A stretch of 32,568 nucleotides of DNA. It comes from Gulosibacter hominis. Its GTDB lineage: Bacteria > Actinomycetota > Actinomycetes > Actinomycetales > Microbacteriaceae. Shown here piece by piece: positions 197-19,291 of the stretch. The notes below the pieces were generated by a model, which ran no database searches, was not told the DNA's origin, and saw nothing but the letters and a program-made list of their open reading frames with translations. The position numbers were made by a program, and so were the translations under genes. Positions within the stretch are counted from its first letter, which is position 1. Every line of letters begins with the position of its first letter. The stretch spans positions 1-32,568 of the forward strand of contig NZ_CAJGWQ010000020.1 in the NCBI RefSeq assembly GCF_904842695.1. Direction: 5' to 3'.

Positions 197-232
197 AGGG
201 AATAATTTACGCACTTGTGGCCGGTTATGCAA
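197..232 (-). promoter_or_regulatory. Putative rRNA operon promoter
   Basis: On the minus strand there is a -35 TTGCAT (227-232), a 17-nt spacer and a -10 TAAATT (204-209), pointing at the leader box at 41-64. The expected transcription start is near 197. The -35 lies only about 34 bp past the thiQ stop, so thiBPQ transcription runs straight into this promoter. Assignment rests on spacing, hexamer match and the leader downstream. Confidence 0.6.
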
Positions 233-265
233 ATCGCTCTTGAATCCCGGGCGTGTCGCGCTTAC

Positions 266-2595: not shown

Positions 2596-2599
2596 GGTG

Positions 2600-3637: not shown

Positions 3638-3642
3638 GTGAA

Positions 3643-3679
3643 CCTCCACTGTGTATGGAGGGCTCGCATTAACTGCGAG
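3643..3679 (-). promoter_or_regulatory. Expression platform: Shine-Dalgarno sequestering hairpin
   Basis: Between aptamer and thiB, the SD sequence TGGAGG (3648-3643) can pair perfectly with CCTCCA (3661-3656) over a 7-nt loop. Just upstream is a 6-bp hairpin CTCGCA/TGCGAG (3679-3674 and 3668-3663). No T-run follows, so control is probably translational, not by termination. In the absence of TPP the aptamer's GGAGGAA could pair with the CCTCC strand and free the SD; that switch is inferred. Confidence 0.6.
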
Positions 3680-3692
3680 GAGAGGTAAAGCT

Positions 3693-3781
3693 CGACTTCC
3701 TCCGCCGGTGCTAACCGGTTCAGGTTCGAGGGTCAGCGGTCCGTACCGCACTCTCAGCGCCCCGGTGGCGCTCCCCTGTCG
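3693..3781 (-). promoter_or_regulatory. TPP riboswitch (THI element)
   Basis: Read on the minus strand the aptamer shows AGGGGAGC near 3777, GCTGAGAG near 3757, GACCCTCGAACCTGAACCGG (3735-3716) and GGAGGAA near 3703. These are the conserved blocks of TPP sensors in the usual order. P1 can form from CGAC (3781-3778) and GTCG (3696-3693). A -10-like TAGCAT (3790-3795) would start the RNA almost at P1. It should repress thiBPQ when TPP is plentiful. Confidence 0.92.
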
Positions 3782-3863
3782 TGCCTCTGATGCTAGTGGA
3801 TTCCGCGGCAGAACTGGCCAACCGCGGCGTCTGCCGGAGTGGCTGCGGCATTCAGCAACAAGT

Positions 3864-5222
<1,359 letters not shown>

Positions 5223-5282
5223 TCACCTCGCTAAGTCGGTTTGTGCCGCGCCGTAAGGCGAGCGCAGCAACTGAACGATCAT

Positions 5283-5311
5283 CATTTATTTCACGGGATG
5301 CAATAAAAGAA
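5283..5311 (-). promoter_or_regulatory. Possible gdhA promoter
   Basis: On the minus strand TTCTTT (5306-5311), a 17-nt spacer and TAAATG (5283-5288) form a weak sigma-70-like promoter aimed at gdhA. Its -35 overlaps the left arm of the inverted repeat at 5309-5344, so a protein bound there would touch the promoter. Weak consensus; tentative. Confidence 0.3.
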
Positions 5312-5344
5312 TGCCATTAACCACTCACGCGGCTAATGGCATTC
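5309..5344. repeat. Inverted repeat upstream of gdhA, 11-bp perfect arms
   Basis: GAATGCCATTA (5309-5319) and its exact complement TAATGGCATTC (5334-5344) flank 14 bases. A related imperfect palindrome lies 22 bp to the right and a further half-site (AATGCC) near 5396. A shared sequence core suggests operator sites of one regulator. On the minus strand the hairpin is followed by TTTTATT, so it could also end transcription from the unknown gene that stops at 5450. Confidence 0.6.
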
Positions 5345-5366
5345 ATACCGGAGTAACCCCGGCGCA

Positions 5367-5393
5367 CTAATGACATTTAATGAATGTAATTAG
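5367..5393. repeat. Second inverted repeat upstream of gdhA
   Basis: CTAATGACATT (5367-5377) and AATGTAATTAG (5383-5393) are complementary at 10 of 11 positions with a 5-base centre. The half-site matches CTAATGGCATT of the first repeat at 10 of 11 positions. No regulator is recognised from the sequence; it does not look like the known AmtR or GlnR sites. Confidence 0.55.
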
Positions 5394-5449
5394 TTAAATG
5401 CCAACTCGCCATTGAGATTGGTCACTTGAACAATAGCACGATAATTATT

Positions 5450-6121
5450 TTATCGCTGCGCCAAAATCTGGCCGGTTCGGCTCACCAACCGCCACCAACC
5501 GGCCGCGATATGCACGGCGATGGGGTCACCGGCGCGCCAGAAGCCGAGCGCGTGTCCGGCAAAGGCGACCCCCGCCGGCGGTCGAGTGTCACCGGCCAGC
5601 GCCCCGCAGCTGTCTGGCAGCTCACGCGTCCAAGTGTCGGTACGGCCCGCCTGCTGGTCAGCGCTGTTCGCCACCGCAGCGATCCCAGCTTCGGCTGCGG
5701 CAAGCACGGCCGCAGCATCCAGCTGGCCGACAAGCGTCCAGCCATGTAGCGGCGGACGCCGGCCCGTCCACGATTCCAGCCGCCGCTCGGGTGGAACCGA
5801 CAGTTCCAGTGCCGCGTCCCCGGAGGCTTCACGTGCGAGCCGATCGAGAAACCCTCGCAGCGGCACCACCGCCTCAAACCGGCCGGAGGCGCAGTCGCTT
5901 GAATCAGCATCCAGCACCTCGCCGGCGATGGCCCGCACGCCGATGGTCAGCGGTGAACGGTCGAGAATGCCAGCTGGGCGCAGCACCGGCACCCAAAAGG
6001 CCACCGCCGAGCCGATCTGCTCAACCAGCACCGAACCGTCCTCGATCCGGCCCGCCCGGCCAAAATAGGTGGCCAGATCATCGCGCACCCGCGCATCCTC
6101 GAAACGAATCCGGGCGCTCAT
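5450..6121 (-). CDS. Conserved hypothetical protein in the ettA-thioesterase operon
   Basis: A 223-residue protein I cannot assign to a family. It is soluble, without signal peptide or membrane segment, rich in Ala and Arg, and contains scattered Trp residues (ESWTGRRPPLHGW, AAGWWRLV). No catalytic motif is evident. Its ATG overlaps the stop of the upstream thioesterase by 4 nt (ATGA), so the two are translated together, and codon use matches its neighbours. This placement supports a real, expressed gene, perhaps tied to the thioesterase. A repeat-rich gap follows its stop. Confidence 0.7.
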   Translation of the reverse strand: MSARIRFEDARVRDDLATYFGRAGRIEDGSVLVEQIGSAVAFWVPVLRPAGILDRSPLTIGVRAIAGEVLDADSSDCASGRFEAVVPLRGFLDRLAREASGDAALELSVPPERRLESWTGRRPPLHGWTLVGQLDAAAVLAAAEAGIAAVANSADQQAGRTDTWTRELPDSCGALAGDTRPPAGVAFAGHALGFWRAGDPIAVHIAAGWWRLVSRTGQILAQR

Positions 6122-6678
6122 TTGACTGCCGCTTCGCCACCGGGCGTGTGCTCGCCGGCGCGATCCACCCGGTCGACGCGCAGCTTCGGCGGCTCACCCA
6201 AAAATGGCTGCCAGGCCGCGCGTTCGGCGTCGTTGAGCCGGCGCGGCCGCTGCGACTCGGCGTCGAGAAACACAATCGATGAGCGCGCCGCAGTGTGCAG
6301 GATGCGTGACCCATGCCCAACCGGGCTCCACACCTCGTAGGCAATTTCGGCCGATGCCGCACCGAGATGGCTCACCCAAATCTGCACGTCGAGCGGTTCG
6401 GGATAGTGCGGGATCGGCGCCCGGTAGTCAATCGCGTGGCCGGCGATGAGTGTGAGTGTGTCGCCGCCGCTGCCGGCATCCACAATGCCCATCGGGCGGT
6501 TCGTTTCGGTACCAGGCTGCGGTTTCCAAAACGCCGCGATACGCGCTTCTTCGAGCAACGTGAATAGTGTCGCGTTATTGACATGACCGTACGCATCCAG
6601 GTCGCGCCAGCGTACCGGCACGGCCACGTGGAATCGGCGTTCGCCGTCCACGTGGCCGCTTTCGAATGTTTCGAGCAT
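6118..6678 (-). CDS. Acyl-CoA thioesterase, 4HBT/hotdog family (YbgC/FadM-like)
   Basis: A 186-residue single-hotdog protein expected to hydrolyse an acyl-CoA thioester in the cytoplasm. The family signature is near the N-terminus: DLDAYGHVNNATLFTLLEEA, with Asp28, His32 and Asn34/35 in the positions used by 4-hydroxybenzoyl-CoA thioesterase relatives, followed by the long hotdog helix (EEARIAAFW). It is longer than the usual 130-150 residues because of a C-terminal tail that ends in charged residues. The start ATG overlaps the ettA stop (TAATG) and its stop overlaps the next gene, so it sits in the middle of a tightly coupled operon. Substrate unknown. Confidence 0.82.
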   Translation of the reverse strand: MLETFESGHVDGERRFHVAVPVRWRDLDAYGHVNNATLFTLLEEARIAAFWKPQPGTETNRPMGIVDAGSGGDTLTLIAGHAIDYRAPIPHYPEPLDVQIWVSHLGAASAEIAYEVWSPVGHGSRILHTAARSSIVFLDAESQRPRRLNDAERAAWQPFLGEPPKLRVDRVDRAGEHTPGGEAAVK

Positions 6679-8360
6679 TAGTCGCGAGTGAGCTTTCGGT
6701 AGGTGACTCGCGAGGGTTTGGCCGCTTCCGGGCCGAGGCGCTCAATCTTGTTCGCCTCATAGCCCTCAAAGTTGCCCTCAAACCAGTACCAGTTCGACGG
6801 GTTTTCATCGGTGCCTTCATAGGCAAGGATGTGCGTGGCCACGCGGTCGAGGAACCACCGGTCGTGGGTGATCACCACGGCGCAACCGGGGAACTCGAGC
6901 AGCGCGTTTTCGAGGCTCGACAGCGTTTCAACGTCGAGGTCATTCGTGGGCTCGTCAAGCAGCAGCAGGTTACCGCCCTGTTTGAGAGTGAGCGCCAGGT
7001 TCAGCCGGTTGCGCTCACCACCCGACAGCACGCCCGACTTCTTCTGCTGGTCTGGGCCCTTAAAACCGAACGACGACACATAGGCGCGCGAGGGAATTTC
7101 GACCTGACCAACCTGGATGAAGTCAAGACCGTCGCTCACAACCTCCCAGACCGACTTTTCGGGGTCGATACCGGCGCGGTTCTGGTCGACGTACGAAAGT
7201 TTGACGGTTTCGCCAATCTTCAGGTCACCCGAGTCGAGCGGCTCAATACCAACGATGGTCTTGAACAGCGTTGATTTACCAACACCGTTCGGACCGATGA
7301 TGCCGACGATGCCGTTGCGTGGCAGCGAGAAGCTGAGGTTATCGAACAGCACGCGGTCGCCGAAGCCCTTTTTGAGGTCGGTGGCTTCGAGCACGATATT
7401 GCCCAGACGCGGCCCCGGCGGAATTTGAATCTCTTCAAAATCAAGCTTCCGGGTGCGCTCCGCCTCGGCCGCCATCTCTTCGTAGCGTGCCAGACGGGCT
7501 TTCGACTTGGCCTGGCGCCCCTTGGTGTTTGAACGCACCCACTCGAGCTCTTCGGCGAGGCGCTTGGCCAGCTTGGCGTCTTTTTTGCCCTGAATCTGCA
7601 GTCGTTCTTTTTTCTTCTCGAGATACGTCGAGTAGTTGCCCTCGTAGGGGTAGAGGCGGCCGCGGTCGACCTCGGCGATCCACTGGGCGACGTGATCGAG
7701 GAAGTACCGGTCGTGGGTGATCGCGATCACCGCACCGGGGTACTTCTGCAGGTGCTGCTCGAGCCACAGCACGCTCTCGGCGTCGAGGTGGTTCGTGGGC
7801 TCATCGAGCAGCAGCAGATCCGGCTTTTCGAGCAGCAGCTTGCACAGCGCCACTCGGCGGCGCTCACCACCCGAGAGGTTGGTGACGGGTTCATCAGCGG
7901 GCGGGCAGCGCAGCGCGTCCATCGCCTGCTCGAGCTGCGAGTCGAGGTCCCAGGCATCGAGCTGGTCGATCTCGGTCTGCAGCGTGCCCATCTCTTCCAT
8001 GAGCGCATCAAAGTCGGCGTCTGGCTGCGCCATTTCTTCGGAGATCTGGTTGAAGCGGTCGAGCTTGCCCTTAATATCGGCAACTCCCTCTTCGACGTTC
8101 TCACGCACGGTTTTCGACTCGTCCAGCGGCGGTTCCTGGAGCAGGATGCCAACGCTGAAGCCGGGGGTGAGCTTGGCCTCACCATTCGACGGCTCGTCGA
8201 GACCGGCCATGATTTTGAGGATGGTCGATTTACCGGCACCGTTCGGGCCGACCATACCGATCTTGGCACCGGGGAAAAACGACATTGTTACGTCGTCGAG
8301 AATCAGCTTGTCGCCCACCTTCTTGCGGGCGCGAACCATTTGATAGATGTACTCGGCCAT
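6678..8360 (-). CDS. ettA: Energy-dependent translational throttle protein EttA (ABC-F)
   Basis: A 560-residue ABC-F protein without membrane domain that binds the ribosomal E site and gates the first steps of elongation according to ATP/ADP level. It holds two ABC domains: Walker A GPNGAGKST (38-46) with signature LSGGERRR (162-169) and Walker B LLLLDEP (182-188), then a second Walker A GPNGVGKST (356-364) and signature LSGGERNR. Between them, roughly 241-300, is the Lys/Arg-rich helical arm (P-site tRNA interaction motif) typical of EttA. Length matches the family. There is no SD; a TAGACT box 7 nt before the ATG suggests a leaderless mRNA. The thioesterase and unknown gene follow in one operon. 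Confidence 0.94.
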   Translation of the reverse strand: MAEYIYQMVRARKKVGDKLILDDVTMSFFPGAKIGMVGPNGAGKSTILKIMAGLDEPSNGEAKLTPGFSVGILLQEPPLDESKTVRENVEEGVADIKGKLDRFNQISEEMAQPDADFDALMEEMGTLQTEIDQLDAWDLDSQLEQAMDALRCPPADEPVTNLSGGERRRVALCKLLLEKPDLLLLDEPTNHLDAESVLWLEQHLQKYPGAVIAITHDRYFLDHVAQWIAEVDRGRLYPYEGNYSTYLEKKKERLQIQGKKDAKLAKRLAEELEWVRSNTKGRQAKSKARLARYEEMAAEAERTRKLDFEEIQIPPGPRLGNIVLEATDLKKGFGDRVLFDNLSFSLPRNGIVGIIGPNGVGKSTLFKTIVGIEPLDSGDLKIGETVKLSYVDQNRAGIDPEKSVWEVVSDGLDFIQVGQVEIPSRAYVSSFGFKGPDQQKKSGVLSGGERNRLNLALTLKQGGNLLLLDEPTNDLDVETLSSLENALLEFPGCAVVITHDRWFLDRVATHILAYEGTDENPSNWYWFEGNFEGYEANKIERLGPEAAKPSRVTYRKLTRD

Positions 8361-8367
8361 GTTGTCC

Positions 8368-8373
8368 AGTCTA
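8368..8373 (-). promoter_or_regulatory. Leaderless -10 box of ettA
   Basis: TAGACT on the minus strand ends exactly 7 nt before the ettA ATG (8360), which would place transcript +1 on the A of the start codon. No SD is present. The same layout recurs at seven other genes in this window. Confidence 0.55.
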
Positions 8374-8418
8374 TGAATTGCGGTTATCGGATGTGGTCAA
8401 GTCGCGGTAAAGCTGTGG

Positions 8419-8904
8419 CTACCAGTCAATATCGATCGACTTGGCAAGCTGACACTTGCCGCTGCTAATCGGTTTGGAGACCAGCGATGCGTAGCGGCCA
8501 TCTGGGCCGCGCTCGCCCAAAAGGCACATATTGTCGGGCATGTGCACCGACACAATCACAAAGGTGGTGTCGAGCCCGATCGGCGTTTTATCGCTGGTCA
8601 CTTCCATTTTTGACTTGTCGAAGCCGGCGTCTACGAGCGCGTTGACGAGGTCTTTGGAGCCCGCGCCGGGATTTGCCGACAGCACCTGTTTGAGCGTCGC
8701 GTCAAAGTAGGCGTGGTTCGCCTCTGCCCCGCCGTCGGGCACAAACTCGGGCGCCTGAGTGGGCGTGGCTTCGGCCGCGGTGGTGGTTTCGACCGGCCCG
8801 CCGTTGGTGGCGCCGCTCGTGCAACCAACCAGCGCCACACTCGCGAACAGGAGCGCGGACGTCGGCAGCAGCACCGCACGCGGAAAATTTTTGAAGCGAC
8901 TCAT
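8419..8904 (-). CDS. Putative lipoprotein (DUF6993-like)
   Basis: A 161-residue exported lipoprotein: basic N-terminus, hydrophobic core and lipobox LVGC with Cys28, then a Thr/Glu/Pro-rich linker (about 29-55) and a small folded domain. Two Cys in the domain (NMCLLGE and SGKCQL) could form a disulfide outside the cell. I recognise it as the actinobacterial lipoprotein commonly found between ssb and ettA and annotated DUF6993; that name is from memory. Function unknown. A strong TAGAAT box (8914-8919) lies 9 nt before the ATG, so the leader is very short or absent. Confidence 0.75.
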   Translation of the reverse strand: MSRFKNFPRAVLLPTSALLFASVALVGCTSGATNGGPVETTTAAEATPTQAPEFVPDGGAEANHAYFDATLKQVLSANPGAGSKDLVNALVDAGFDKSKMEVTSDKTPIGLDTTFVIVSVHMPDNMCLLGERGPDGRYASLVSKPISSGKCQLAKSIDIDW

Positions 8905-9013
8905 CGAGTTGGCATTCTACGTGGCCAATTCCGCAAGATCGCCATCGGCCACTCAGCTTCCGCCGCAACGAAGCAGTCCCGAGCAATTGTGCGCGGGACT
9001 GCCCACGCTGACA

Positions 9014-9487
9014 TTAGAACGGTTTGCCCGCATCCGACAGCTCAGCCGTCTGCGCACCGATGTCGGCAAATCCGACTGCCGAATCGCTGGCAGGCGTAGT
9101 GATGTCGCTGTCTGCTTCTTCACGCTGCCGCGCGTTGCTGCTCACGGTAGCGGTGGCAAACGAAAGGTCGGGGCCGACGTGATTCGCGAGGATCTCGATG
9201 CGCTTGCCGTTGCTGTTGTCTTCGCGCTGAAACTCACTAATTTGCAGCCGCCCCTGCACCATGACCCGGTGCCCCTTGGCGAGGCTCGCCTTGACATTGG
9301 TGGCGAGATTACGGAAACAGGTGATGGTGTACCAGTTGGTGTGCTGGTCTTCCCACTTACCCTCTTCGTTGCGCCGACGCCGTGAAGAGGCGAGTCGAAA
9401 AGTGGTGATGGTGAGATCACCGTTATCGCTGTGTTTGTGTTCGGGATCGGTTCCGATAACTCCGACCACTGTGATCTGATCTGACAT
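9014..9487 (-). CDS. ssb: Single-stranded DNA-binding protein
   Basis: A 157-residue SSB with an N-terminal OB fold (about 1-110): ITVVGVIGTDPE, TFRLASSRRR, WYTITCFRNLATNV, KGHRVMVQGRL. The C-terminal tail is disordered and ends in Pro-Phe (AGKPF) like other SSBs, but the tip has a Lys and only one nearby Asp instead of the usual run of acidic residues, so partner binding may be weaker. This suggests a second, non-essential SSB paralogue instead of the rpsF/rpsR-linked housekeeping copy. Start ATG 9487 has GGAG a few bases upstream. Confidence 0.9.
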   Translation of the reverse strand: MSDQITVVGVIGTDPEHKHSDNGDLTITTFRLASSRRRRNEEGKWEDQHTNWYTITCFRNLATNVKASLAKGHRVMVQGRLQISEFQREDNSNGKRIEILANHVGPDLSFATATVSSNARQREEADSDITTPASDSAVGFADIGAQTAELSDAGKPF

Positions 9488-9672
9488 GCAGGCTCCAATC
9501 GTGCTGGGTGTTGAGACGATCGGCGAGCCCGTGCCGTGTCGAATGTTACGAGGCTCACCGACCGTGCCCGCAGTCTCTCGCGATCATGTCCGGTCACATC
9601 GGCAGCAAGACGGTCGCTGTGGATAACCCGCTATTAACAGGCCGGTCGGTTTCACAGTGATGCGGCGCGGCA

Positions 9673-9714
9673 CTACCCCATCCACTCAGCGAACTACCCC
9701 ATCCATTCAGCGAA
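9673..9714. repeat. 21-bp tandem duplication at the end of msrA
   Basis: Two adjacent 21-bp copies (9673-9693 and 9694-9714) differ at one base. On the msrA strand each reads Phe-Ala-Glu-Trp-Met-Gly-stop, so the last six codons plus stop are repeated in frame right after the first stop. The second unit is outside the protein unless the stop is read through. Confidence 0.85.
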
Positions 9715-10218
9715 TCGGGCACGCACTTTCCGCACCTTTGGTACCGCGACGGCATTGCAGTAGCCGTTGCCGGGGTTTTTTGCGAAAAAGTCCTGGTGGT
9801 AATCCTCAGCCGGCCAAAAATCGGTGGCGTCCTCGATCGCGGTCACCACCCCACCGCCCCACAGCTCATTGGCGCGATCGATGGCGGCGGTAAATTGTTC
9901 GCGCTGCTGCGCATCCGCCGGGAACATCGCCGAACGGTACTGGGTGCCAATATCTGCGCCCTGCCGGTTGAGTTGTCGAGGGTCGTGCAGAGTGAAAAAA
10001 ATGTCGAGCACGATATCGGCGGGAATGATCGTCTCGTCGAACTCGATGCGGATCGCCTCTGCGTGACCGGTTCTGCCGGTGCACACCTGCTCATAGCTCG
10101 GTTCGGCAACCGCGCCGCCGATATAACCGGCGGTGATGGCAGTCACGCCGCGTACATTGCGGTACACGGCATCAAGACACCAAAAGCAGCCACCGGCGAG
10201 AACAAATGTTGTAGTCAT
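9694..10218 (-). CDS. msrA: Peptide-methionine (S)-S-oxide reductase
   Basis: A 174-residue repair enzyme that reduces methionine-S-sulfoxide in proteins and free Met. The catalytic motif GCFWC is at residues 9-13, followed by typical blocks GYIGG, YEQVCTGRTGHAEAI and FFTLHDPRQLNRQGADIGTQYRSA. The frame is open to 10362, but ATG 10218 is chosen because the family starts just before GCFWC, and the longer version would run through the divergent pabC start. No SD; a TACTCT -10 lies 7 nt upstream, so the mRNA is probably leaderless. The C-terminal 21 bp are tandemly duplicated. Confidence 0.93.
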   Translation of the reverse strand: MTTTFVLAGGCFWCLDAVYRNVRGVTAITAGYIGGAVAEPSYEQVCTGRTGHAEAIRIEFDETIIPADIVLDIFFTLHDPRQLNRQGADIGTQYRSAMFPADAQQREQFTAAIDRANELWGGGVVTAIEDATDFWPAEDYHQDFFAKNPGNGYCNAVAVPKVRKVRARFAEWMG

Positions 10219-10225
10219 GCGCGCA

Positions 10226-10235
10226 AGAGTACGCT
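10226..10235. promoter_or_regulatory. Overlapping divergent -10 boxes for msrA and pabC
   Basis: The 24 bp between the two start codons hold TACTCT on the minus strand (10231-10226) and TACGCT on the plus strand (10230-10235), sharing the TA at 10230-10231. Each is exactly 7 nt from its start codon. The two promoters can hardly be occupied at once, so the genes may compete for RNA polymerase. Confidence 0.55.
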
Positions 10236-10242
10236 GAATTAC

Positions 10243-11106
10243 ATGACACCTGTTCCACTGGTAGCCTTTCTTGACGGCTCGCTGCACGACGTCACCAGCA
10301 TGATGGTGCGGCCCGACGACCTCGGTATCGTGCGCGGCGACGGAGTTTTTGATGTTGCGCACGGTTACGCCGGCCGGTTTGCCAACCTGGATGCGAACCT
10401 CGAGCGACTCGCAAATTCGGCACGCGTCCTGTCACTACCAGAACCGGATGCGGCCGGGTACCGCCGCGCGGTCGCTGCGCTCACCGACGCCTGGGATTGG
10501 GATGCAGCTCCCGAAACGACACTGCGCATGGTGCTCACTCGCGGACCGGAGACTGAGAGCCCTGAAACTCGCCAGCCGAGCGCCTGGGCGATGATCTCGG
10601 CAATCAGCAAGCGGGTGGTGCAAGAACGCGAGGGCGTACGAGTGCTCGTGCTCGACCGCGGAATTGAGGCCGAAGAAACGAGCGAGCTGCCCTGGCTGCT
10701 GCCGGGTGCCAAGAGCCTGTCTTACGGCATCAATATGGCAGCAAAGCGCTGGGCGGCGGCCCACGGTGCCGATGATGCGCTGTTCGTGTCGCCCAGTGGC
10801 CGATTGCTCGAAGGGCCGACCTCTTCGCTCGTGCTCGACATCGACGGCGAGCTGGTTACCCCCACACAAGATGGGCTGCTTCGCTCGCTCACCATTCAGG
10901 CCATGATCGACGGCGCGCCAGCCGCCGGCCTCACCGCCCGATTCGATGTGCTCAACCTCGCCGACCTTGACCGGGCTCGGGGCGGCTGGCTGGTTTCTAC
11001 CGGCCGCATCCTGGCACCGATTATTGAACTCGATGGCAAGCCGTTCCCGATCTCGCCGCTGCACGACCAGCTCGCGCAGCTGCTCGAGGTGCCCGGCAGT
11101 AACTAG
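10243..11106 (+). CDS. pabC: Aminodeoxychorismate lyase / class-IV aminotransferase
   Basis: A 287-residue PLP enzyme of fold type IV. The likely reaction is 4-amino-4-deoxychorismate to p-aminobenzoate and pyruvate, for folate. Motifs: RGDGVFDV (31-38), the Schiff-base lysine Lys157 in GAKSLSYGINMAAKRWA, and the cofactor-phosphate loop LLEGPTSSL. Branched-chain or D-amino-acid aminotransferases share these motifs, so substrate is inferred from family resemblance. The frame is open upstream to 9796, but ATG 10243 begins the conserved fold (PLVAFLDG) and sits 7 nt after a TACGCT box without SD, hence leaderless. Confidence 0.82.
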   Translation: MTPVPLVAFLDGSLHDVTSMMVRPDDLGIVRGDGVFDVAHGYAGRFANLDANLERLANSARVLSLPEPDAAGYRRAVAALTDAWDWDAAPETTLRMVLTRGPETESPETRQPSAWAMISAISKRVVQEREGVRVLVLDRGIEAEETSELPWLLPGAKSLSYGINMAAKRWAAAHGADDALFVSPSGRLLEGPTSSLVLDIDGELVTPTQDGLLRSLTIQAMIDGAPAAGLTARFDVLNLADLDRARGGWLVSTGRILAPIIELDGKPFPISPLHDQLAQLLEVPGSN

Positions 11107-11173
11107 CCGCTCAAGGTAATAATAGGGCTGTGCCCGCGGCCGCTTTGTAGTCGCGGGCGCAGTTCTATCTCAG

Positions 11174-12538
11174 CTAGTCCCACGGATCAAAACCGCTACC
11201 GCCTTCGAGACTGGCAGCAAAGTCTCTTAATTGATCAGCCGACTGATTATCGGACTCGATGAAGTCTTGAAGCGCAAGGTGGAGCTGCACCGCCCCGTTC
11301 TCAACTTCCCATGCCAAGTCCTTCGTCAGCTCGTAGTGCAGTATCGTCAAGTCGTAGAGTTCATAGGCAGGTCCATATGCACCAAGCCCGATATCAGCAG
11401 AGCGCGCCACCTGGTTCCCAATCGTGCAAGTGATCGTCTCAGACGCGGCAGCACTCAGCGCAGTTTGCACCTTTGGCATGTACCTCTCGGTAATGGCATT
11501 GACTTCGCTCTCGACCATATTTACAGAGCAGTCAAGATCGTAGATTCTGTCGAGCACCAGGTCATAAGTACCTTTTTGTGTTCCAACACCAGAAATCGTC
11601 CCTGTCAGGCTTTCGCGCAGGGCCTCTTCCTCAGCTCGGATCTGCTGACTCAGCGCATCGAGTTGCTTCGATAATGATTCCACGCCCTCAGAATATTTTC
11701 CTGGCGCCCCCACGCCTGCTCTCGAGTCTCCCTTGGGTTCCGGAACGAGGCTGACTCCAAATGAGGCAGTTTCGAGGACTTTTCCGAGCACTCCTGGCAT
11801 GAAGAGGCTGACGCCCTCGGCTGCCAAGCCGAAGACGTGGAGCTGATCTTGCCACGTGGCTGTAGTTCCTTGGGCGATCGCGTTGAATGCTTGGATCGCC
11901 GTTTCGAGCGTCGCCATCACGTCTTCACGTGCCTTCTCCCAGATCGCCTTTTCGGCGGCCACAACGCCGCCGCGAACAGCGGAAATCGCCAAGCTCCCGG
12001 CGATAGCCATAGGCAGTTTCAGCAGAAACTTATCTTTGAAAGCGTCGATCGTGTTGCCTGAAAGCCCGGCGACATGCGAGCTAATCCCGTTCATGCCCAC
12101 GGCCAAGTCTTCGGATGCTACTGAGATGTTCGAGTTCGCATCCGCCACAACCGGTTCTACCGACAAGTGGCCACTCACGGTTCGGCAGCGTTCGACTATC
12201 TCATCGACTTCAGCCGGGTCAGGTAGATCAGCCCACCTACCGACAATTGAGTCAATTGTATTTCGCACCTCCGCGAAATATCCCTGAAATTCCGCGTCTT
12301 TCTGGTCGTCAAATCCAAGCACGTCCCAGCCAAAGATATTAATCATCACCGGCCCCGACCAGTCACCACCACCTTCACCATCCTGCCCGGGACGGGTCAC
12401 TTTGGAACGACTATCACCTATCACTTGATAAACGTCGCCGCGTACCTCCCATCCCCAGCCGGTCTCGGAATACATCCATGCATCAATTGCGGCGCGTTTC
12501 AGTTCCCCCACCTTCGTGGCAAATTTCTCGTATCCCAC
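11174..12538 (-). CDS. WXG-like helical protein, possible type VII secretion substrate
   Basis: A 454-residue protein with no signal peptide and no firm family assignment. It is mostly helical. Residues about 100-220 resemble the WXG/ESX-type domain of actinobacterial secreted proteins (RWADLPDPAEVDEIVERC, LSGNTIDAFKDKFLLKLP, EKAIWEKAREDVMATL). A coiled-coil-like stretch covers 283-312 and a YxxxD motif (YELYD, 392-396) precedes an acidic C-terminus ending DPWD. Trp residues cluster near the N-terminus (21, 28, 30). Start GTG 12538 has GAGGAG 5 nt upstream, inside the end of the subtilase-like gene, 2 nt away, so the pair is coupled. By eye it is less GC-rich than its neighbours, suggesting an accessory origin. 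Confidence 0.65.
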   Translation of the reverse strand: MGYEKFATKVGELKRAAIDAWMYSETGWGWEVRGDVYQVIGDSRSKVTRPGQDGEGGGDWSGPVMINIFGWDVLGFDDQKDAEFQGYFAEVRNTIDSIVGRWADLPDPAEVDEIVERCRTVSGHLSVEPVVADANSNISVASEDLAVGMNGISSHVAGLSGNTIDAFKDKFLLKLPMAIAGSLAISAVRGGVVAAEKAIWEKAREDVMATLETAIQAFNAIAQGTTATWQDQLHVFGLAAEGVSLFMPGVLGKVLETASFGVSLVPEPKGDSRAGVGAPGKYSEGVESLSKQLDALSQQIRAEEEALRESLTGTISGVGTQKGTYDLVLDRIYDLDCSVNMVESEVNAITERYMPKVQTALSAAASETITCTIGNQVARSADIGLGAYGPAYELYDLTILHYELTKDLAWEVENGAVQLHLALQDFIESDNQSADQLRDFAASLEGGSGFDPWD

Positions 12539-12540
12539 GG

Positions 12541-13956
12541 CTACTCCTCAGTGTGTTCGATTTGATGCGATGATTCAGCTGCCACTTTGCGACGCTGAGT
12601 AATTGAGTTTGAAAACGCCACCGCGCCGGCAGCGATTACCGCTGTGAGCGCCGCAACTGGCCAAAACCACCCGGCTTGTTCGTCCGATTGAGCTTGCTGG
12701 CCTTCGTCCAGTCGCGATTCAGTGGTGGGCGCCGTCTGCCATGATTCCGCGACTGCACGCTCTGGGATCCATTCGAGCGCGCCTTCAAGAACCCCAACTC
12801 CCTGGCGATAGTGGCGGGGAGAATGCAGCCCTGATGACGGAGGCTCGCCAAGGAGGATCGAACGCACTCCGGAGAGTTCGGGATCACCAAAGCGCGGGTC
12901 ACTGAAGTGGTCAAAAGCGGGCTCATCGGTAAACTCCTGTGCGTCAATTTCCAGGAGTCTGCCCGGGTCTATCGCCTCGACAGCCTGGTTGGGCCTTGGC
13001 GAATCAAGTGTGATTGGCTCAGCCGTGCTGCGTAGGAGCTGGGTGAGCTGATGGGTCGTCGCTTCCGGTGTCGCCTGTTGCAACAGTGCCAGAATGCCCG
13101 CAGTTGTGGCAGCTGCGTAAACCGAGCTCGATGCCGATTCGATGTCACCATCGGCGAGGTTGCGAACCGGTATGTCAACGCCAGGAGCGCCGAGCACTAG
13201 TCCCTCGGCGAGAGTCGATTGACTCCATAGCCGTGTCGGTGTTTCCAACGCCGCAACACCAATCGCACCAAAGTAACTGGCCGATTCAGGAGTGTTGTGT
13301 CCGCCGCGATCGCCCGCGGGAATGAGGTAGGCGTGATCGCGCAGTGCCCAATAGTCCAGTGCCCCGTTGCCCGGCTGCTGGGAGGCGAGATACTCGTCGC
13401 GCTGCACGTCATCACCAACCAGAAAAATATCGGCGCCGTCCTCATCCGCCTGCATCATGCGCGCCGCAAGATCGACACGTGCACGGTCGCAGTCAGCAGG
13501 CCAGCCTGCGCTCTCCGCATCAGCTCCGGCCGGCGGCACCTGGTAGACCAGCACCTTTGCGCGAGGTGCCACGCCGGCAATCATGCCGTCACCACCCTGC
13601 CCGACGATTGTGGTGACCGCGCCGGTCGTATACTCCGTACCTGGCGAATCTGCCGGCAGGTCGAATTGACACTGTTCCGGGAGAGGCACATACGTGGCAT
13701 CAGCACCGCGCAGATCAGGCACATCCGTAGCGAACCCCTCGCCAGCCACCGCGATCGTCACGCCTTCACCGGTGAGATCAGCATCGTGCAATTCATCAAT
13801 TCCAGATCCCTCGCCAACTGCGAAGGAGTGCTCCAGCTCGTAGGCACTGGCACCGGGCGCGGCCACAAACACAGCACCAATCACTACCGCCGCGGCAGCT
13901 GCTATGCGTTGAACTCGCGCGCGCAGCAGAGCACCTCTGTCATTGATGCCTGTCAC
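12541..13956 (-). CDS. Catalytically dead subtilase (mycosin-like) membrane protein
   Basis: A 471-residue exported protein with the architecture of a type VII mycosin: signal peptide (about 1-38, ending ASA), S8-like domain (about 55-310), a linker and a C-terminal membrane helix (429-448) with a basic then acidic tail. The fold is recognisable (GEGVTIAVAGEGF, GMIAGVAPRAKVLVYQV, AAATTAGILALL), yet the catalytic Asp aligns with Gly72, His with Tyr109, oxyanion Asn with Asp216 and Ser with Val279. It should not be a protease; a scaffold or regulatory role is inferred. Start GTG 13956 has GAGAGGGA upstream and is preferred over an in-frame TTG at 13974. It heads a two-gene operon. Confidence 0.72.
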   Translation of the reverse strand: MTGINDRGALLRARVQRIAAAAAVVIGAVFVAAPGASAYELEHSFAVGEGSGIDELHDADLTGEGVTIAVAGEGFATDVPDLRGADATYVPLPEQCQFDLPADSPGTEYTTGAVTTIVGQGGDGMIAGVAPRAKVLVYQVPPAGADAESAGWPADCDRARVDLAARMMQADEDGADIFLVGDDVQRDEYLASQQPGNGALDYWALRDHAYLIPAGDRGGHNTPESASYFGAIGVAALETPTRLWSQSTLAEGLVLGAPGVDIPVRNLADGDIESASSSVYAAATTAGILALLQQATPEATTHQLTQLLRSTAEPITLDSPRPNQAVEAIDPGRLLEIDAQEFTDEPAFDHFSDPRFGDPELSGVRSILLGEPPSSGLHSPRHYRQGVGVLEGALEWIPERAVAESWQTAPTTESRLDEGQQAQSDEQAGWFWPVAALTAVIAAGAVAFSNSITQRRKVAAESSHQIEHTEE

Positions 13957-13990
13957 GTATTCATTCCCTCTCAATACACGGATAACTCTA

Positions 13991-14026
13991 TGGTCGAGCA
14001 GCTACCCGAAATGCCTGGTTCGACCA
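13991..14026. repeat. Inverted repeat upstream of the pseudo-subtilase operon
   Basis: TGGTCGA (13991-13997) and TCGACCA (14020-14026) are exact complements separated by 22 bp. They lie 35-70 bp before the GTG start, in the likely promoter region, so they could be an operator. A chance match of this size is possible. Confidence 0.35.
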
Positions 14027-14111
14027 CAAATCAAACTTGCTAGCACCGGGTTCATCCCGGAGTGAGCAGTTAGCTAATTCTCGAGACCGATGCTGGCTAC
14101 GTCTCAGCCAT

Positions 14112-14144
14112 GAGAGCCCGCGTGAAGCGTTCACGCGGGCTCTC
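14112..14144 (-). terminator. Strong hairpin after nadE
   Basis: A perfect 15-bp GC-rich stem (GAGAGCCCGCGTGAA at 14112-14126 and its complement at 14130-14144) closes a 3-nt loop 27 bp past the nadE stop. No U-tract follows on either strand, which is common for terminator hairpins of high-GC actinobacteria. It separates nhaA-nadE from the pseudo-subtilase operon on the same strand. Confidence 0.75.
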
Positions 14145-14170
14145 GCTGTGTGCGCAAAACTGGCACCGTG

Positions 14171-14983
14171 CTAGCGCCACCACTGATCAGTGGGGGTTAC
14201 CGGTAGCTGCCGCTTGTGTCGAGTGCGCAGATAGTAGCCCTCGATTTTTGCGGCGATCTCGTCGGCGACTTCACCGCCGGTGAGATAGGTGTCGATATCG
14301 CGGTAGCTGAGCCCGAGCTCGGTTTCATCCGGCCGGCCGGGCACACCATCAAGCAGGTCGGCCGTGGGCACTTTTTCGTAGAGCCGCGCATCCGCACCGA
14401 GGTGCTGCAGCAGTTCGCGGCCCTGCTGTTTTGTCAGTCCACTCAGCGGCATCACATCCGCCGCACCATCGCCAAATTTTGTGAAAAAACCGGTGACAGC
14501 CTCAGCCGCGTGATCGCTTCCCAGCACCAGCATCCCGTGTTCACCACCGAGCGCAAATTGCGCCACCATGCGGATGCGAGCCTTAATATTGCCGCGATTA
14601 AAATCGCTCAATTGCGCTGGCGCAAACGCCTCACTCAGCCCGTCAACAGCCGCCTTAATGTTGACTGCCACCGTTTCATCCGGCCGGATGAATTGGAGCG
14701 CCAGCTGTGCATCCGCTTCGTCCACCTGCGTGCCGTGCGGCAGCCGCATCGCTACAAAGCGCGCATCCCCGCCATTGGCCCGCACCCGCTCAACCGCCAG
14801 CTGCGCTAGCCGGCCCGCCAGCGTCGAGTCTTGACCACCGGAAATTCCGAGCACGAACCCACACACTCCGGTTTTTTCGAGATAGTCGACCAAAAACTGA
14901 ACGCGACGCTCAATTTCATCGGCCGGATCGATAGTTGCCCGCACCGCGAGCGCGGTAATGATCTCTTGCTGTAGGGGACGCAT
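14171..14983 (-). CDS. nadE: NH3-dependent NAD+ synthetase
   Basis: A 270-residue cytoplasmic enzyme that amidates nicotinate adenine dinucleotide to NAD+ using ATP and ammonia. The PP-loop ATP motif SGGQDST is at 48-54, and later blocks ([41 protein letters not shown]) match the NadE of E. coli type, as does the length. No glutaminase (nitrilase) domain is present, so free ammonia is the donor. It starts 12 nt after nhaA on the same strand, without a good SD, so it is probably expressed by coupling to nhaA. A strong hairpin follows. Confidence 0.94.
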
Positions 14984-14995
14984 AGCCGGATTCTG

Positions 14996-16330
14996 TCACG
15001 CTCGGCTGACCGGTTCGTCGGTTTCGTCGGCGGCGGTTTGCGCGGCTTGCGATCGTTCGTGGGCGCGACCGCGCAGCCAGAGGAAAGTGCCGCCCAAAAT
15101 GGCAGCGAACGTGGATGCGATCAGAATTGCCGACTTCGACAGTTCGTGTTCGGGGATGCCGATCGGGAAGGCAAGTTCTGAGATGAGCAGCGACACCGTG
15201 AACCCGATACCCGCGATCATCGACACCGCGACAATATCGAGCCATTTAATGGCCGGGTCAAGGTTGATGCGCTGTACACGCGTGGTGAGGAAAACCGCCA
15301 GCGTTATACCGATGGGTTTACCGATGATGAGGCCGAGGGCGATACCCAGCACCAGCGGCGAGGTGAGGGCAGCGAAGTCCATGCCCGCAAACGAAACCCC
15401 GGCCGAGAAGAACGCGAACAGGGGCACGCAAATACCGGCTGAAAGCGGCCGGAAGCGGTGTTCGAACGTTTCAGCGAGGCTCATTTCGTCGCCGGTTTCG
15501 CCCCTGGCTGGCCGCACCGGCACCGAGAAGCCCAGCAGCACACCGGCGATGGTGGCGTGAATACCCGAGAGGTAGAACAGCGCCCACACGATGATGCCGA
15601 GCGGCAGCAGCAGAAACCATGCCGCTCCCTTGTCTTTCCGGAAGAGGTTGCGGCCGTAGTGCGCCAGCAACCAATAGCCGGCAAGCGGCACGAGCGCCGC
15701 AAAAAGGTGGCCGAGTGACAGCGCCGAGGTGTAGGCAATCGCGATAATGACGATGGCGATGAGGTCATCGACAACAGCGAGGGTGAGCAAGAAGGTGCGC
15801 AGCGCGAGCGGCAGCTTCGAGCCGACAACCGCAAGCACTGCCACTGCGAAGGCAATATCGGTGGCTGTGGGAATCGCCCAGCCGTGCGACAGTTGCGGAT
15901 CGTTACCGGCGAAAAAAATGTAGATGAGGGCGGGCACGATTACCCCGCCAGCAGCGGCCGCAATTGGCACTATCGCGCGGCTGGGTTTACGCAGGTCACC
16001 CTCGACAAATTCGCGCTTGAGCTCGAGACCCGCCAAAAAGAAAAACACTGCGAGCAGCCCGTCGGCGGCCCAGTGCCCCACCGTCATCTCGAATGACCAG
16101 TCGCCGAATTGAAAACCGGCCTTGGTGTCGCGAAGCCCCTCGTACCAGCCCGATAGTGGACTGTTGGCCAGCACAATCGCGATCACGGCGGCCACGATGA
16201 GCAGCCCACCACCGATGGTTTCTTTGCTGACGATCTGTGCGATTCGCTGCAGCTCGCTCGGCGACGAGGGCGCAAAAGCGGTTTCTTCTTGCGGGGCTGT
16301 ATCGGGTTGGGAGGCGGGTGCGTTAGTCAT
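14996..16330 (-). CDS. nhaA: Na+/H+ antiporter NhaA
   Basis: A 444-residue inner-membrane antiporter that expels Na+ (or Li+) in exchange for H+ and protects against salt and alkaline stress. Conserved motifs are GLELKREF (101-108), PTATDIAFA and the paired ion-binding aspartates in VVDDLIAIV (Asp188-Asp189). About a dozen membrane helices are evident. The chain is longer than E. coli NhaA, with an extra polar N-terminus (about 35 residues) and a charged C-terminal tail. Start ATG 16330 has GAGGAT upstream. Likely co-transcribed with nadE. Confidence 0.93.
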   Translation of the reverse strand: MTNAPASQPDTAPQEETAFAPSSPSELQRIAQIVSKETIGGGLLIVAAVIAIVLANSPLSGWYEGLRDTKAGFQFGDWSFEMTVGHWAADGLLAVFFFLAGLELKREFVEGDLRKPSRAIVPIAAAAGGVIVPALIYIFFAGNDPQLSHGWAIPTATDIAFAVAVLAVVGSKLPLALRTFLLTLAVVDDLIAIVIIAIAYTSALSLGHLFAALVPLAGYWLLAHYGRNLFRKDKGAAWFLLLPLGIIVWALFYLSGIHATIAGVLLGFSVPVRPARGETGDEMSLAETFEHRFRPLSAGICVPLFAFFSAGVSFAGMDFAALTSPLVLGIALGLIIGKPIGITLAVFLTTRVQRINLDPAIKWLDIVAVSMIAGIGFTVSLLISELAFPIGIPEHELSKSAILIASTFAAILGGTFLWLRGRAHERSQAAQTAADETDEPVSRA

Positions 16331-16489
16331 CGAGATCCTCAGAGCGTTTCGCGAACAATGCCATCCATTCCGGCAGTCACGCCGATGAATGCGCCGACCA
16401 GACTTCCCGGCTCACCGCGAATCACCTTAACGGCTGGGGGCTTGCGACCGCCACACCCGGCGCGTTTACCCCAGCACCGCCATTGACAG

Positions 16490-16562
<73 letters not shown>

Positions 16563-16619
16563 GAATGCTTCCAGCGTACCGGCACCAGCAACACCGTGAG
16601 GATGCACTTTGGCGGTGGC

Positions 16620-16625
16620 TACCAT
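16620..16625 (+). promoter_or_regulatory. Leaderless -10 box of orn
   Basis: TACCAT ends 7 nt before ATG 16633, with a weak -35 (GTGAGG, 16596-16601) 18 nt upstream. No SD is present, so translation probably begins at the 5' end of the mRNA. Confidence 0.5.
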
Positions 16626-16632
16626 TGGATGC

Positions 16633-17265
16633 ATGAGCAATGCGAATGACCGGCTGGTGTGGATTGACTGCGAAATGACCGGGCTCGACCCGCAAATCGA
16701 CGAGCTGGTTGAGGTTGCGGTATTCGTCACCGACTTCGAACTCAATGTGCTCGATACTGAGGGGCTCAGCGTGGTCATTAAGCCATCACAGGCGGCCCTC
16801 GACCACATGAACGATTTTGTCACCGAGATGCACCGCACCTCGGGGCTGTCCGAAGAAATCCCGCACGGCATTTCGCTGGCCGATGCGCAACAGCAGGTGC
16901 TCGACTATGTGAAGCGGTTTGTGCCCGCAGCCAAGCAGGCACCACTTGCCGGCAACACAATCGGCACCGACCGCATGTTCCTCGCCCGCTACATGCCCGA
17001 GCTGGATGAATTCCTGCACTATCGCAATATCGACGTGTCAACGTTCAAAGAGCTCGCCCGCCGCTGGTACCCGCGCATCTACTTCCAGTCGCCCGAAAAA
17101 CACGGCGGGCACCGCGCCGCCGCCGACATCCTCGAATCGATTCGCGAACTGCGTTATTACCGCGCGGCAATGTGCATCCCCCAGCCCGGCCCCAGCAGCA
17201 CCGAGTTGAAGGAAACCTCCAAGCAGGTTGCGGATGAGTTCGCGCCGCTACTCGAACGCGATTAG
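16633..17265 (+). CDS. orn: Oligoribonuclease
   Basis: A 210-residue 3'-to-5' exoribonuclease that degrades short oligonucleotides (2-5 nt), including pGpG, to mononucleotides. The DEDDh exonuclease motifs are intact: IDCEMTGLD with Asp12 and Glu14, the GTDRMFLARYMPELD block, and KHGGHRAAADILESI with the catalytic His and Asp. Length is slightly above the E. coli enzyme because of a C-terminal tail. The frame opens at 16609, but ATG 16633 is the family start and has a -10 box exactly 7 nt upstream. It lies between two tRNA genes and stands alone. Confidence 0.94.
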   Translation: MSNANDRLVWIDCEMTGLDPQIDELVEVAVFVTDFELNVLDTEGLSVVIKPSQAALDHMNDFVTEMHRTSGLSEEIPHGISLADAQQQVLDYVKRFVPAAKQAPLAGNTIGTDRMFLARYMPELDEFLHYRNIDVSTFKELARRWYPRIYFQSPEKHGGHRAAADILESIRELRYYRAAMCIPQPGPSSTELKETSKQVADEFAPLLERD

Positions 17266-17342
17266 CTAGCCGCGCCGCCGAGTCGCTATGTGCCGAGAAT
17301 TGGGCTATCATGGCCAAGTTGCATGCGTGAGCAAACAACATG

Positions 17343-17418
17343 GCGGACGTAGCTCAGTTGGTAGAGCGCTTGGTTGTGGTCCAGGAGGTCGCGGGTTCAA
17401 AACCCGTCGTTCGCCCCA
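17343..17418 (+). tRNA. tRNA-His (anticodon GTG)
   Basis: The acceptor GCGGACG pairs with CGTTCGC, the anticodon loop carries GTG (TTGTGGT), and the T-arm is GCGGGTTCAAAACCCGT. A G at 17342 can supply the extra G-1 typical of tRNA-His, opposite C73 at 17415. The CCA end is encoded (17416-17418). Confidence 0.95.
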
Positions 17419-17485
17419 ATACTTCTGTGTTCGCTTCTAATGCTGTCAGCGCTTCGTAGTTTCATCTGAACTCGAACGACTCCCC

Positions 17486-17515
17486 TTCGCACCGTTTAGT
17501 TCAAGACAGTAAAAT
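17486..17515 (+). promoter_or_regulatory. Putative promoter of the Fic/VbhA locus
   Basis: TTCGCA (17486-17491), an 18-nt spacer and TAAAAT (17510-17515) lie 31 bp before the antitoxin ATG. The predicted transcript starts near 17522 and includes the strong SD at 17532-17540. Confidence 0.45.
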
Positions 17516-17546
17516 GGCGAGCAGCAGACTTAGGAAAGGGCACATC

Positions 17547-17756
17547 ATGAGCACTTCCTCTATCACCACTACGGCATCCGCCACTATGACAGCCACTGAG
17601 CGTGAAGCGCTCGTAGCCGAGGCGATTCACAGCGGTGAAATGGAAGGCCTGCGTGTCGATCCAGTCACCCGTGAAGACGCGCAGGAGTACATCACCGGAC
17701 AAATCAGCTCGGATGAGCTTGTCGCCCGCGCACGCGCACGCTATGGCCTCGCCTGA
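17547..17756 (+). CDS. VbhA-like antitoxin of a Fic toxin
   Basis: A 69-residue antitoxin. The core (TATEREALVAEAIHSGEMEGLRV) carries the class-I Fic inhibitory motif [S/T]xxxE[G/N] as Ser29-Gly-Glu-Met-Glu33-Gly34. In this family the Glu enters the Fic active site and blocks productive ATP binding. The C-terminal part (YITGQISSDELVARARARYG) is typical of VbhA-family proteins. ATG 17547 is chosen because AGGAAAGGG lies 6 nt upstream; the in-frame ATG at 17514 falls inside the -10 box. The toxin ATG (17743) lies inside this gene, overlapping its last 14 nt. Confidence 0.85.
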   Translation: MSTSSITTTASATMTATEREALVAEAIHSGEMEGLRVDPVTREDAQEYITGQISSDELVARARARYGLA

Positions 17757-18434
17757 TTTTTTGGTTGACCCGTATATTGACCCCGATTCGGGCCTGTTAC
17801 GAAACTTGGTCGGCGCCCGGACTCAGCGCGCCTTGTGCAGCTCGTGGATCACCCGGTGAAACCGACTGGCGATCTCGAAGAATTACGTGCGATTCACCGC
17901 CACCTGTTTCAGGATGTCTATGCCTGGGCGGGTGAGCTGCGCACCGTTGACATCCGCAAAAACGAAGATGGCGCGCAGTTCTTCCTACCGGTGTCGATGA
18001 TCGAACGCGCGGCGATGTTTGCGGCCAAAGAGCTCCGCGATGACAATGAGCTGCAGGGCCTCCCCCGTAACGAGTTCATCGAACGACTGGCCTACCACTA
18101 CGATGCCTTCAACTACATCCACCCATTTCGTGAAGGTAATGGTCGGACTCAACGGGTGTTCTGGAGCCGAATCGCACGCGCCGCGGGGTGGCAGCTCGAC
18201 TGGCGTGCCGTGCGCGGCTCGACCAACGATCGAGCTGGTCGCGCGGCCTCAGATCAACGCGATTTCGCACCATTACACGATATGTTCGACCGAGTTGTCA
18301 CCGCCGCAAAACCGCAGCGTGAATTCGATGCGGCATGGCGCGGCCTGGAGCACGCAAGGCTCGCTTTTCGCACCATCGATGTAAAAACAGGCGAAAAACC
18401 GGACACACTCGACGAGAAAGCTAGAGACGAATGA
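17743..18434 (+). pseudogene. Fic family AMPylating toxin, reading frame broken near the N-terminus
   Basis: Fic enzymes transfer AMP to target proteins. The expected start, ATG 17743, overlaps the antitoxin and reads MASPDFLVDPYIDPDSGLLR, then NLVGART, but stops at 17857-17859. The rest continues in another frame (about 17823-18434), reading ARLVQLVDHPVKPTGDL onward. The active site HPFREGNGRTQR is intact (18120-18155), as is the flap region (FFLPVSMIERA). Homologues I recall have about a dozen more residues between the two pieces, so a deletion of 3n+1 bases near 17815-17835 best explains this. The only in-frame start downstream is GTG 17835, giving 199 residues, without SD. It may be inactive, or a weakly made short Fic. 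Confidence 0.7.
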
Positions 18435-18480
18435 GTGATAACTCAGCAAGTGTTCGCACGGCCCCGTTTTTGGAGGCAGC

Positions 18481-18831
18481 ATGATCGAGCTCAGCGCCGA
18501 AGATTTTGAACAGCTTGTCGTGAGCGAACTCGACGCGCTCCCCGACCGGGTGGTTGACGGCCTCGACAATGTGGTGTTCCTGATCGAAGATCGACCGCCC
18601 GACGGGTCGCTCGACATGCTCGGCGTATACGAAGGATTCGATCTCACCGAACGCGGCGCATACGGCTACGGCGAACTGCCCGACCGCATCATCCTGTTTC
18701 GCGAGCCGCTACTGGCAATCTGCGAAACCATCGAGGAGCTTCGCGATGAGGTGCACATCACGCTCGTCCACGAAATCGCGCATTACTACGGCATCGACGA
18801 CGAACAGCTTCACGAACTCGGTTGGGGATAA
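18481..18831 (+). CDS. Metallopeptidase family protein (zincin-like, PF06262 type)
   Basis: A 116-residue single-domain protein with the zinc motif HEIAH (97-101) followed by YYGIDDEQLHELG, the extended signature of the small actinobacterial and proteobacterial zincin_1/DUF1025 family. The N-terminal half has the usual pattern (DALPDRVVDGLDNVVFLIEDRP, LGVYEG, PDRIILFREPL). It has no signal peptide, so it is cytoplasmic. Substrate unknown. ATG 18481 has TGGAGG 5 nt upstream. It lies 46 bp after the Fic gene and could share its transcript. Confidence 0.88.
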   Translation: MIELSAEDFEQLVVSELDALPDRVVDGLDNVVFLIEDRPPDGSLDMLGVYEGFDLTERGAYGYGELPDRIILFREPLLAICETIEELRDEVHITLVHEIAHYYGIDDEQLHELGWG

Positions 18832-18970
18832 CGCATCCCGGGAACTTTCCGCCGCACTCGTTCCTCATAATTGGATGGTGCCCGTTCAGCGCGCCGACTC
18901 AGTCTCCCGATAGGTTGTCCGCACCGAGTCGACCTTCGATTCCCGAATCTGCCAGCAGAAAGAGTGTTCG

Positions 18971-19291
18971 ATGTCATTCCCTCAGATGAACTATCAGCCC
19001 GCGCATCAGCCCGTCCCGCCGTACGGCTATAACGCTCAGCCGCCGGAAGACCCCGAGGGGCTCGGCAGCTGGATTCTCACGCTTTTTGTTGCCGGCCTCC
19101 CACTCATCGGGTTCATCTATCTGCTGGTGCTTGCCTTCGGCTCTGATAGTTCCAAAGCCAAACAAAACTTCGCCCGCGCCTCGCTCATCCTCGGACTCGT
19201 GGCGTTTGTCATCATGTTCGTGGTGTTCATCGTGATCGGGGCCACTGTTGGGTTCGCCGCATTCTCGGTTGTGAACATGAGCGACTACTAA
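18971..19291 (+). CDS. Small membrane protein with Pro/Tyr-rich N-terminus
   Basis: A 106-residue protein with a Gln/Pro/Tyr-rich cytoplasmic-type N-terminus (about 1-30) followed by two hydrophobic segments (about 34-56 and 68-98) joined by a short basic loop (SDSSKAKQNFARASL). This is the layout of many actinobacterial DUF4870-like or DUF4190-like membrane proteins, but I cannot name a family with confidence. Function unknown. It starts 139 bp after the zincin gene with a weak AGAAAGAG upstream, and converges on the P-loop gene. Confidence 0.7.
   Translation: MSFPQMNYQPAHQPVPPYGYNAQPPEDPEGLGSWILTLFVAGLPLIGFIYLLVLAFGSDSSKAKQNFARASLILGLVAFVIMFVVFIVIGATVGFAAFSVVNMSDY

Follow-up and report, generated by a model that had tools for sequence, protein, structure and literature searches.

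A mycosin-like subtilase of Gulosibacter hominis with all four catalytic positions replaced

The locus and its two genes

We have analysed a mycosin-like pseudoprotease gene of Gulosibacter hominis, here called the pseudo-mycosin, within the window, that is, the whole 32,568-nucleotide stretch of DNA under study. The frame can be opened at two starts, and residues are numbered here by the 477-residue count, in which Gly78, Tyr115, Asp222 and Val285 are the Gly72, Tyr109, Asp216 and Val279 of the 471-residue count. A ribosome-binding-like sequence precedes the GTG start, and no promoter-like site was found, against 1.2 expected in shuffled sequences. Hydropathy peaks at residues 24-42 and 437-455, and the structure model also places helices at the two ends, the N-terminal one at residues 14-32, both with low pLDDT; judged by hydropathy, the protein has the signal peptide and C-terminal membrane helix of a mycosin (MycP) of the type VII secretion system (T7SS). 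Cys102 and Cys162 are its only cysteines, both columns are kept in the four nearest relatives aligned, and a disulfide between them is possible.

Table 1. Features of the pseudo-mycosin locus and its flanks, in window coordinates
Feature	Position	Strand	Remark
Aminotransferase class IV gene	10240-11106		Flank
Accessory stretch	11107..14170	.	Flanked by the aminotransferase class IV and NAD synthase genes
Co-encoded 454-aa protein (partner)	11174..12538	-	GTG 2 bp after pseudo-mycosin stop
Pseudo-mycosin ORF	12541..13956	-	GTG start, 471 aa; no internal stop
GAGGAG	12544-12549		Inside last pseudo-mycosin codons, ahead of partner GTG
Probable C-terminal membrane helix	12601..12666	-	Residues 437-458; hydropathy
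Val285, catalytic Ser position	13120..13122	-	GTS...P motif reads SSVYAAA
Asp222, oxyanion Asn position	13309..13311	-	Alignment
Cys162	13489..13491	-	Second conserved cysteine; alignment
Tyr115, catalytic His position	13630..13632	-	Alignment
Cys102	13669..13671	-	Conserved in the four nearest relatives aligned
Gly78, catalytic Asp position	13741..13743	-	Glu in nearest clade, Asp in most others
Probable signal peptide region	13837..13920	-	Residues 19-46 of 477; hydropathy
GAGAGGGA, ribosome-binding-like	13965..13972	-	5' of the GTG; read from sequence
Alternative TTG start	13974		Gives 477 aa
NAD synthase gene	14171-14983		Flank
tRNA-His gene	17343-17418		
VbhA-type antitoxin gene, then Fic/DOC-domain gene	17514-18434		Pfam; near the tRNA-His gene

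The spacing of 2 bp between the two genes and the GAGGAG in the last pseudo-mycosin codons suggest that the pseudo-mycosin and its 454-residue partner are probably translated together. In Pfam, NCBIfam and PADLOC, nothing matched the partner family above cut-off; the partner itself likewise reached no Pfam or NCBIfam cut-off, whether for WXG100 or for another known T7SS substrate profile. Weaker matches to PMEI (E 0.07, the partner itself), FadA (E 0.009, one of five homologues scanned) and HblD (E 0.0005 at best, two of six family members, the window's own not among them) were taken for chance matches of helical sequence and rejected as identities of the family. A profile search of solved structures returned nothing under E 0.1, comparison of the partner profile with three locus-type T7SS substrate N-termini gave a probability of 0.14%, and a single-sequence structure model with a pLDDT of 37 was set aside.

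The partner family occurs in 8 of 398 genomes of the taxonomic family, this one included, with weak matches in G277 and G289 lying outside the seven other loci. No mycosin adjoins the partner homologue in any of those seven loci, each of about 12 kb, so the pair is not a conserved one, although in one genome, G079, a mycosin lies 6.8 kb from the homologue. Of the 8 partner carriers, 6 have a mycosin-like match to alignment A2 that reaches 120 bits, vs 28 of 390 non-carriers (Fisher p 6e-6), a comparison counted by hand, ignoring phylogeny and using a bit-score line of the analyst's choice. Two of the homologues are broken, one being split over two frames (L064:4876-6022, G008) and the other carrying an internal stop (L060:5263-6576, G240).

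The junction that holds the pair differs between congeners. At the congener junction loci (L121/L122), the NAD synthase and aminotransferase genes are separated by 39 bp, measured between match ends, in G002, and an unrelated 1135-aa DUF2126/transglutaminase gene lies between both flanks in G004; among the other eight genomes of the genus, five show the flanks at a distance or on separate contigs, while three lack an aminotransferase match. By codon usage score the pair are the two most atypical of 34 genes (0.011 and -0.069), the remaining 32, the analyst's pick from the window and contig C7, having a mean of 0.223 and an s.d. of 0.049. Neither a transposase or integrase nor a T7SS gene was noticed in the ORFs read beside the pair (window 1-19000).

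Subtilase fold and catalytic positions

The sequence-only reading had proposed a subtilase of mycosin type with signal peptide and C-terminal helix, and this is borne out by the predicted fold, by hydropathy and by PF00082 (Peptidase family S8), which the protein matches at 39.4 bits, above the curated cut-off of 21.8. It scores 52.3 bits against the NCBIfam model of T7SS mycosins, TIGR03921, below the cut-off of 278.75; that cut-off is strict, because this genome's triad-bearing mycosin, encoded next to EccB, also falls under it at 260.9 bits. The CspC model NF040808 gave no match at E<=1.

Alignment with the four relatives places Gly78, Tyr115, Asp222 and Val285 in the Asp, His, oxyanion Asn and Ser columns. 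The Asp-motif stretch aligns gap-free, and in the Ser motif the G, T and P are replaced as well. The structure model, whose alignment comprised five rows, becomes unreliable immediately past residue 222, and therefore the assignment of Asp222 rests on the sequence alignment. Residues 64-213 contain no His, and for this reason a relocated triad was rejected. The protein thus lacks the Asp, His and Ser triad and oxyanion Asn of an active S8 protease; the alignment and the survey below confirm the earlier claim that all four positions are replaced, and the four residues then named are right in 471-residue numbering.

Relatives and conservation of the fold

The four columns were read in 66 mycosin-like proteins, in which the pseudo-mycosin alone has lost His or Ser, both residues being kept in 65 of the 65 others. 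The first set (53 rows, five of them without one or more positions) gave 48 complete rows: 39 Asp-His-Asn-Ser, 5 Glu-His-Asn-Ser, 3 Asp-His-Asp-Ser and the pseudo-mycosin. The second (20 rows, two of them repeats) added 18, with 15 Asp-His-Asn-Ser and one each of Glu-His-Asn-Ser, Gly-His-Asn-Ser and Asp-His-Ser-Ser. Among the 65 others the Asp position is altered in 7 and the Asn position in 4, counts that describe rows chosen by similarity rather than a random sample of mycosins, with containment duplicates removed and near-identical copies such as L009 and L015 kept. Glu replaces Asp, with His, Asn and Ser kept, throughout one clade (L005, L006, L007, L013, L041 and also L123; the Glu form). 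In another genus of the same order, with several mycosin-like paralogues per genome, one copy has Gly and one Glu at the Asp position and the other three residues are kept (L129:134-1369 and L127:1330-2547, both minus strand). Together, the Glu-form clade and these single changes suggest that the Asp position gives way first.

In a tree of 48 proteins, for which 5 of 53 rows were dropped as short or, in the case of L036, as far, the pseudo-mycosin and six Glu-form sequences, five from its own genus and one from Brevibacterium ravenspurgense, form a seven-row set with support 100/99. Its end branch measures 2.91 vs 0.28-0.71 in those six, with 3.31 for the core mycosin of the same genome, and its placement inside the set is unsure, the program having warned of long branches.

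The closest relatives found are 33-36% identical and are apparently paralogues. No orthologue sharing the substitutions was found among 60 relatives or in genomes of the genus (11), family (398) and order (396), overlapping sets of which the latter two had at most the first four candidates per genome scored in most rows. Two short peptide patterns taken from alignment A2 were also scanned against 84,980 species genomes; they hit three loci, of which those read were of the Glu form, and yielded no orthologue. The protein had no match in 72,556 plasmid records. The case against the sequence-only reading would have been orthologues that keep the triad, leaving this copy a lone mutant. The nearest homologues do keep His, Asn and Ser, and the pseudo-mycosin does stand alone among the proteins sampled, but these homologues are apparently paralogues, and the orthologue search in the genomes above found none.

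The pattern of loss does not look like random decay. There are 103 columns invariant in the four Glu-form relatives, of which the pseudo-mycosin keeps 64, and retention is 3 of 15 in the active-site windows, which were the analyst's choice, vs 61 of 88 elsewhere (Fisher p=0.0008), 27 of the 88 being lost. When the count is repeated with one of the four relatives in the pseudo-mycosin's role, each relative retains 15 of 16-17 columns in the active-site windows and 88 of 97-121 outside them. The frame has no stop in 477 codons; under simulated neutral drift, none of the 200 runs per identity level was stop-free from 0.66 down, and at 0.38-0.24 identity the mean was 10.7-13.2 stops. Losses cluster at the active site, most other invariant columns and both cysteines are kept and the frame is stop-free; as far as one sequence can indicate, this pattern argues that the fold stayed under selection once the active site had been freed. 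The earlier claim of a maintained pseudoprotease thus stands in its main part, loss being centred on the active site, with most other invariant columns and both cysteines persisting and no stop where the drift simulations gave stops, and is limited by the single sequence in which the dead state is known; relaxed constraint would likewise be compatible with the long branch and the atypical codon usage. Within that limit, the sequence supports a maintained, non-catalytic subtilase of mycosin type.

Secretion context and possible roles

The genome has three S8 matches: a mycosin with the intact Asp, His, Asn and Ser set, which adjoins EccB, a Glu-form paralogue, which adjoins two WXG100 genes, and the pseudo-mycosin. 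The T7SS genes found lie on contigs C7 and C9 of the 33-contig assembly, and the pseudo-mycosin lies outside any ESX/T7SS locus, its neighbours being the partner, NAD synthase and aminotransferase class IV genes. The one T7SS EccC found lies close to the beginning of contig C9 and is 70% identical to that of G008; the analyst read two weaker EccC matches, 39% and 30% across some 220 residues, as probable FtsK proteins.

The accessible text of PMC5082899 reports for M. marinum that protease-dead MycP1 and MycP5 restored secretion and that mycosins stabilise the complexes, which are unstable without them, and that of PMC8131196 describes a MycP5 trimer capping the EccB5 chamber of ESX-5. A dead mycosin can thus in principle act structurally, and by analogy a T7SS-stabilising role of the pseudo-mycosin is plausible. 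It shares the subtilase domain and C-terminal membrane helix of MycP1 and MycP5, but the five M. tuberculosis mycosins have an Asp-His-Ser triad according to the available part of PMC5156307, whereas the pseudo-mycosin lacks all four catalytic residues and lies outside any ecc locus. With the Glu-form proteins of Gulosibacter and B. ravenspurgense it shares both cysteine columns and the tree set, but those proteins keep His, Asn and Ser with Glu for Asp and it has none of the four. Use of a subtilase fold without catalysis is already known from CspC and CspA of Clostridioides difficile, which the portions consulted of PMC6636752 and PMC12880746 describe as subtilisin-like pseudoproteases; these are soluble germination sensors of another subfamily, in contrast to the pseudo-mycosin, which does not match NF040808. 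In the available text of the open-licence literature we found no report of a natural mycosin relative without all four residues, nor in that literature any paper joining mycosins with pseudoenzymes or Gulosibacter with type VII secretion; a fully dead natural relative is new within the literature searched.

We lean towards the view that the pseudo-mycosin is an accessory, non-proteolytic mycosin paralogue, probably kept by selection, with a putative binding role. In the simplest history, Asp would have become Glu in the ancestor of the Glu-form clade, a Glu-form mycosin would have been duplicated or acquired, and His, Asn and Ser would have been lost once cutting was no longer needed. The product may, less certainly, be exported and remain tethered through its C-terminal helix, the domain facing outwards, where it could work by binding, holding or presenting the co-translated partner, and/or could sit on the T7SS of the genome as a non-cutting mycosin, like the stabilising MycP of mycobacteria. 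The sequence-only reading had left only ESX-complex stabilisation as a remaining role; this restriction is not supported: the gene is in neither T7SS locus found, an intact mycosin lies by EccB, a Glu-form paralogue lies by two WXG100 genes, and a partner is co-encoded, on which the pseudo-mycosin may act instead.

It is unlikely, in our judgement, that the gene is a redundant extra mycosin under relaxed constraint, without catalysis and on its way to a pseudogene with no stop as yet. The long end branch fits this, though that of this genome's canonical core mycosin is longer still, as do the atypical codon usage, the other mycosins with His and Ser in the genome, the broken partner homologues of G008 and G240, and the failure to find an orthologue in the 11 genus, 398 family and 396 order genomes (first four candidates per genome in the larger two). 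Such constraint is harder to reconcile with the concentration of losses at the active site, retention of both cysteines and of 61 of the 88 invariant columns outside it, a frame free of the 10.7-13.2 stops simulated on average, an intact start signal and the presence of the downstream partner. We give similarly low weight to the possibility that the protein is built into the T7SS membrane complex as a structural subunit, in a place of the canonical mycosin, for example in a mixed cap: its mycosin kinship, predicted membrane helix, the single EccC found and the non-proteolytic role of MycP described in the consulted parts of PMC5082899 and PMC8131196 agree with it, but its gene is not near the T7SS genes found, which lie on contigs C7 and C9.

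More doubtful still is a mobile module for secreted interaction or conflict, a tethered binder with a helical exported protein, that uses the resident T7SS. The genes are adjacent, coupled and atypical in codon usage, their junction differs between congeners, the partner family occurs in genomes with accessory mycosins, and the accessible text of PMC3482391 places a mycosin-like protease in the neighbourhood of Ntox38, a T7SS toxin domain. Against this, neither protein matches a toxin, immunity or defence family over cut-off, the pairing is seen in one genome only, the 72,556 plasmid records gave no match and no transposase or integrase was noticed in the ORFs read alongside. Non-classical chemistry by shifted residues, Ser282, Ser283 and Ser284 just before Val285 and Glu79 just after Gly78, has these residues present in the sequence, and seems barely credible, since the Asp-position motif aligns gap-free, the stretch 64-213 without His provides no general base at the usual place, and the Ser motif has also lost its G, T and P.

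One further reading, which we hold to be quite improbable, is that the non-cutting mycosin and its own exported helical client form a portable unit, docking on the host T7SS as a second non-proteolytic cap or client gate. If so, the genome would hold three grades of mycosin (Asp-His-Asn-Ser, Glu-His-Asn-Ser and Gly-Tyr-Asp-Val) between which labour is divided. As presented in the available text of PMC5082899, the structural role of mycosins apart from proteolysis rests on laboratory active-site mutants; a natural relative without the catalytic residues, in a genome that also has a triad-bearing and a half-altered copy, offers an evolutionary test of that split between structure and proteolysis.

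In Gulosibacter, Glu-form mycosins sit in T7SS-type loci, as indicated by family matches in G008 (L046); WXG100 genes also occur on L044 and L047, and the rest of L044, L047 and L048 was judged T7SS-type by eye. No T7SS gene was seen in the stretch read of the B. ravenspurgense locus (L041). The G008 locus (L046:180-17953) encodes a MoxR-type ATPase, DUF58, transglutaminase and protein kinase proteins, a Gly-rich substrate-like protein, the Glu-form mycosin, two WXG100 proteins, and FHA, EccD-like and EccC proteins, with no EccB noticed in the stretch read. The Glu-form copy on contig C7 of the present genome groups with that of B. ravenspurgense (support 100/99), which suggests transfer between lineages.
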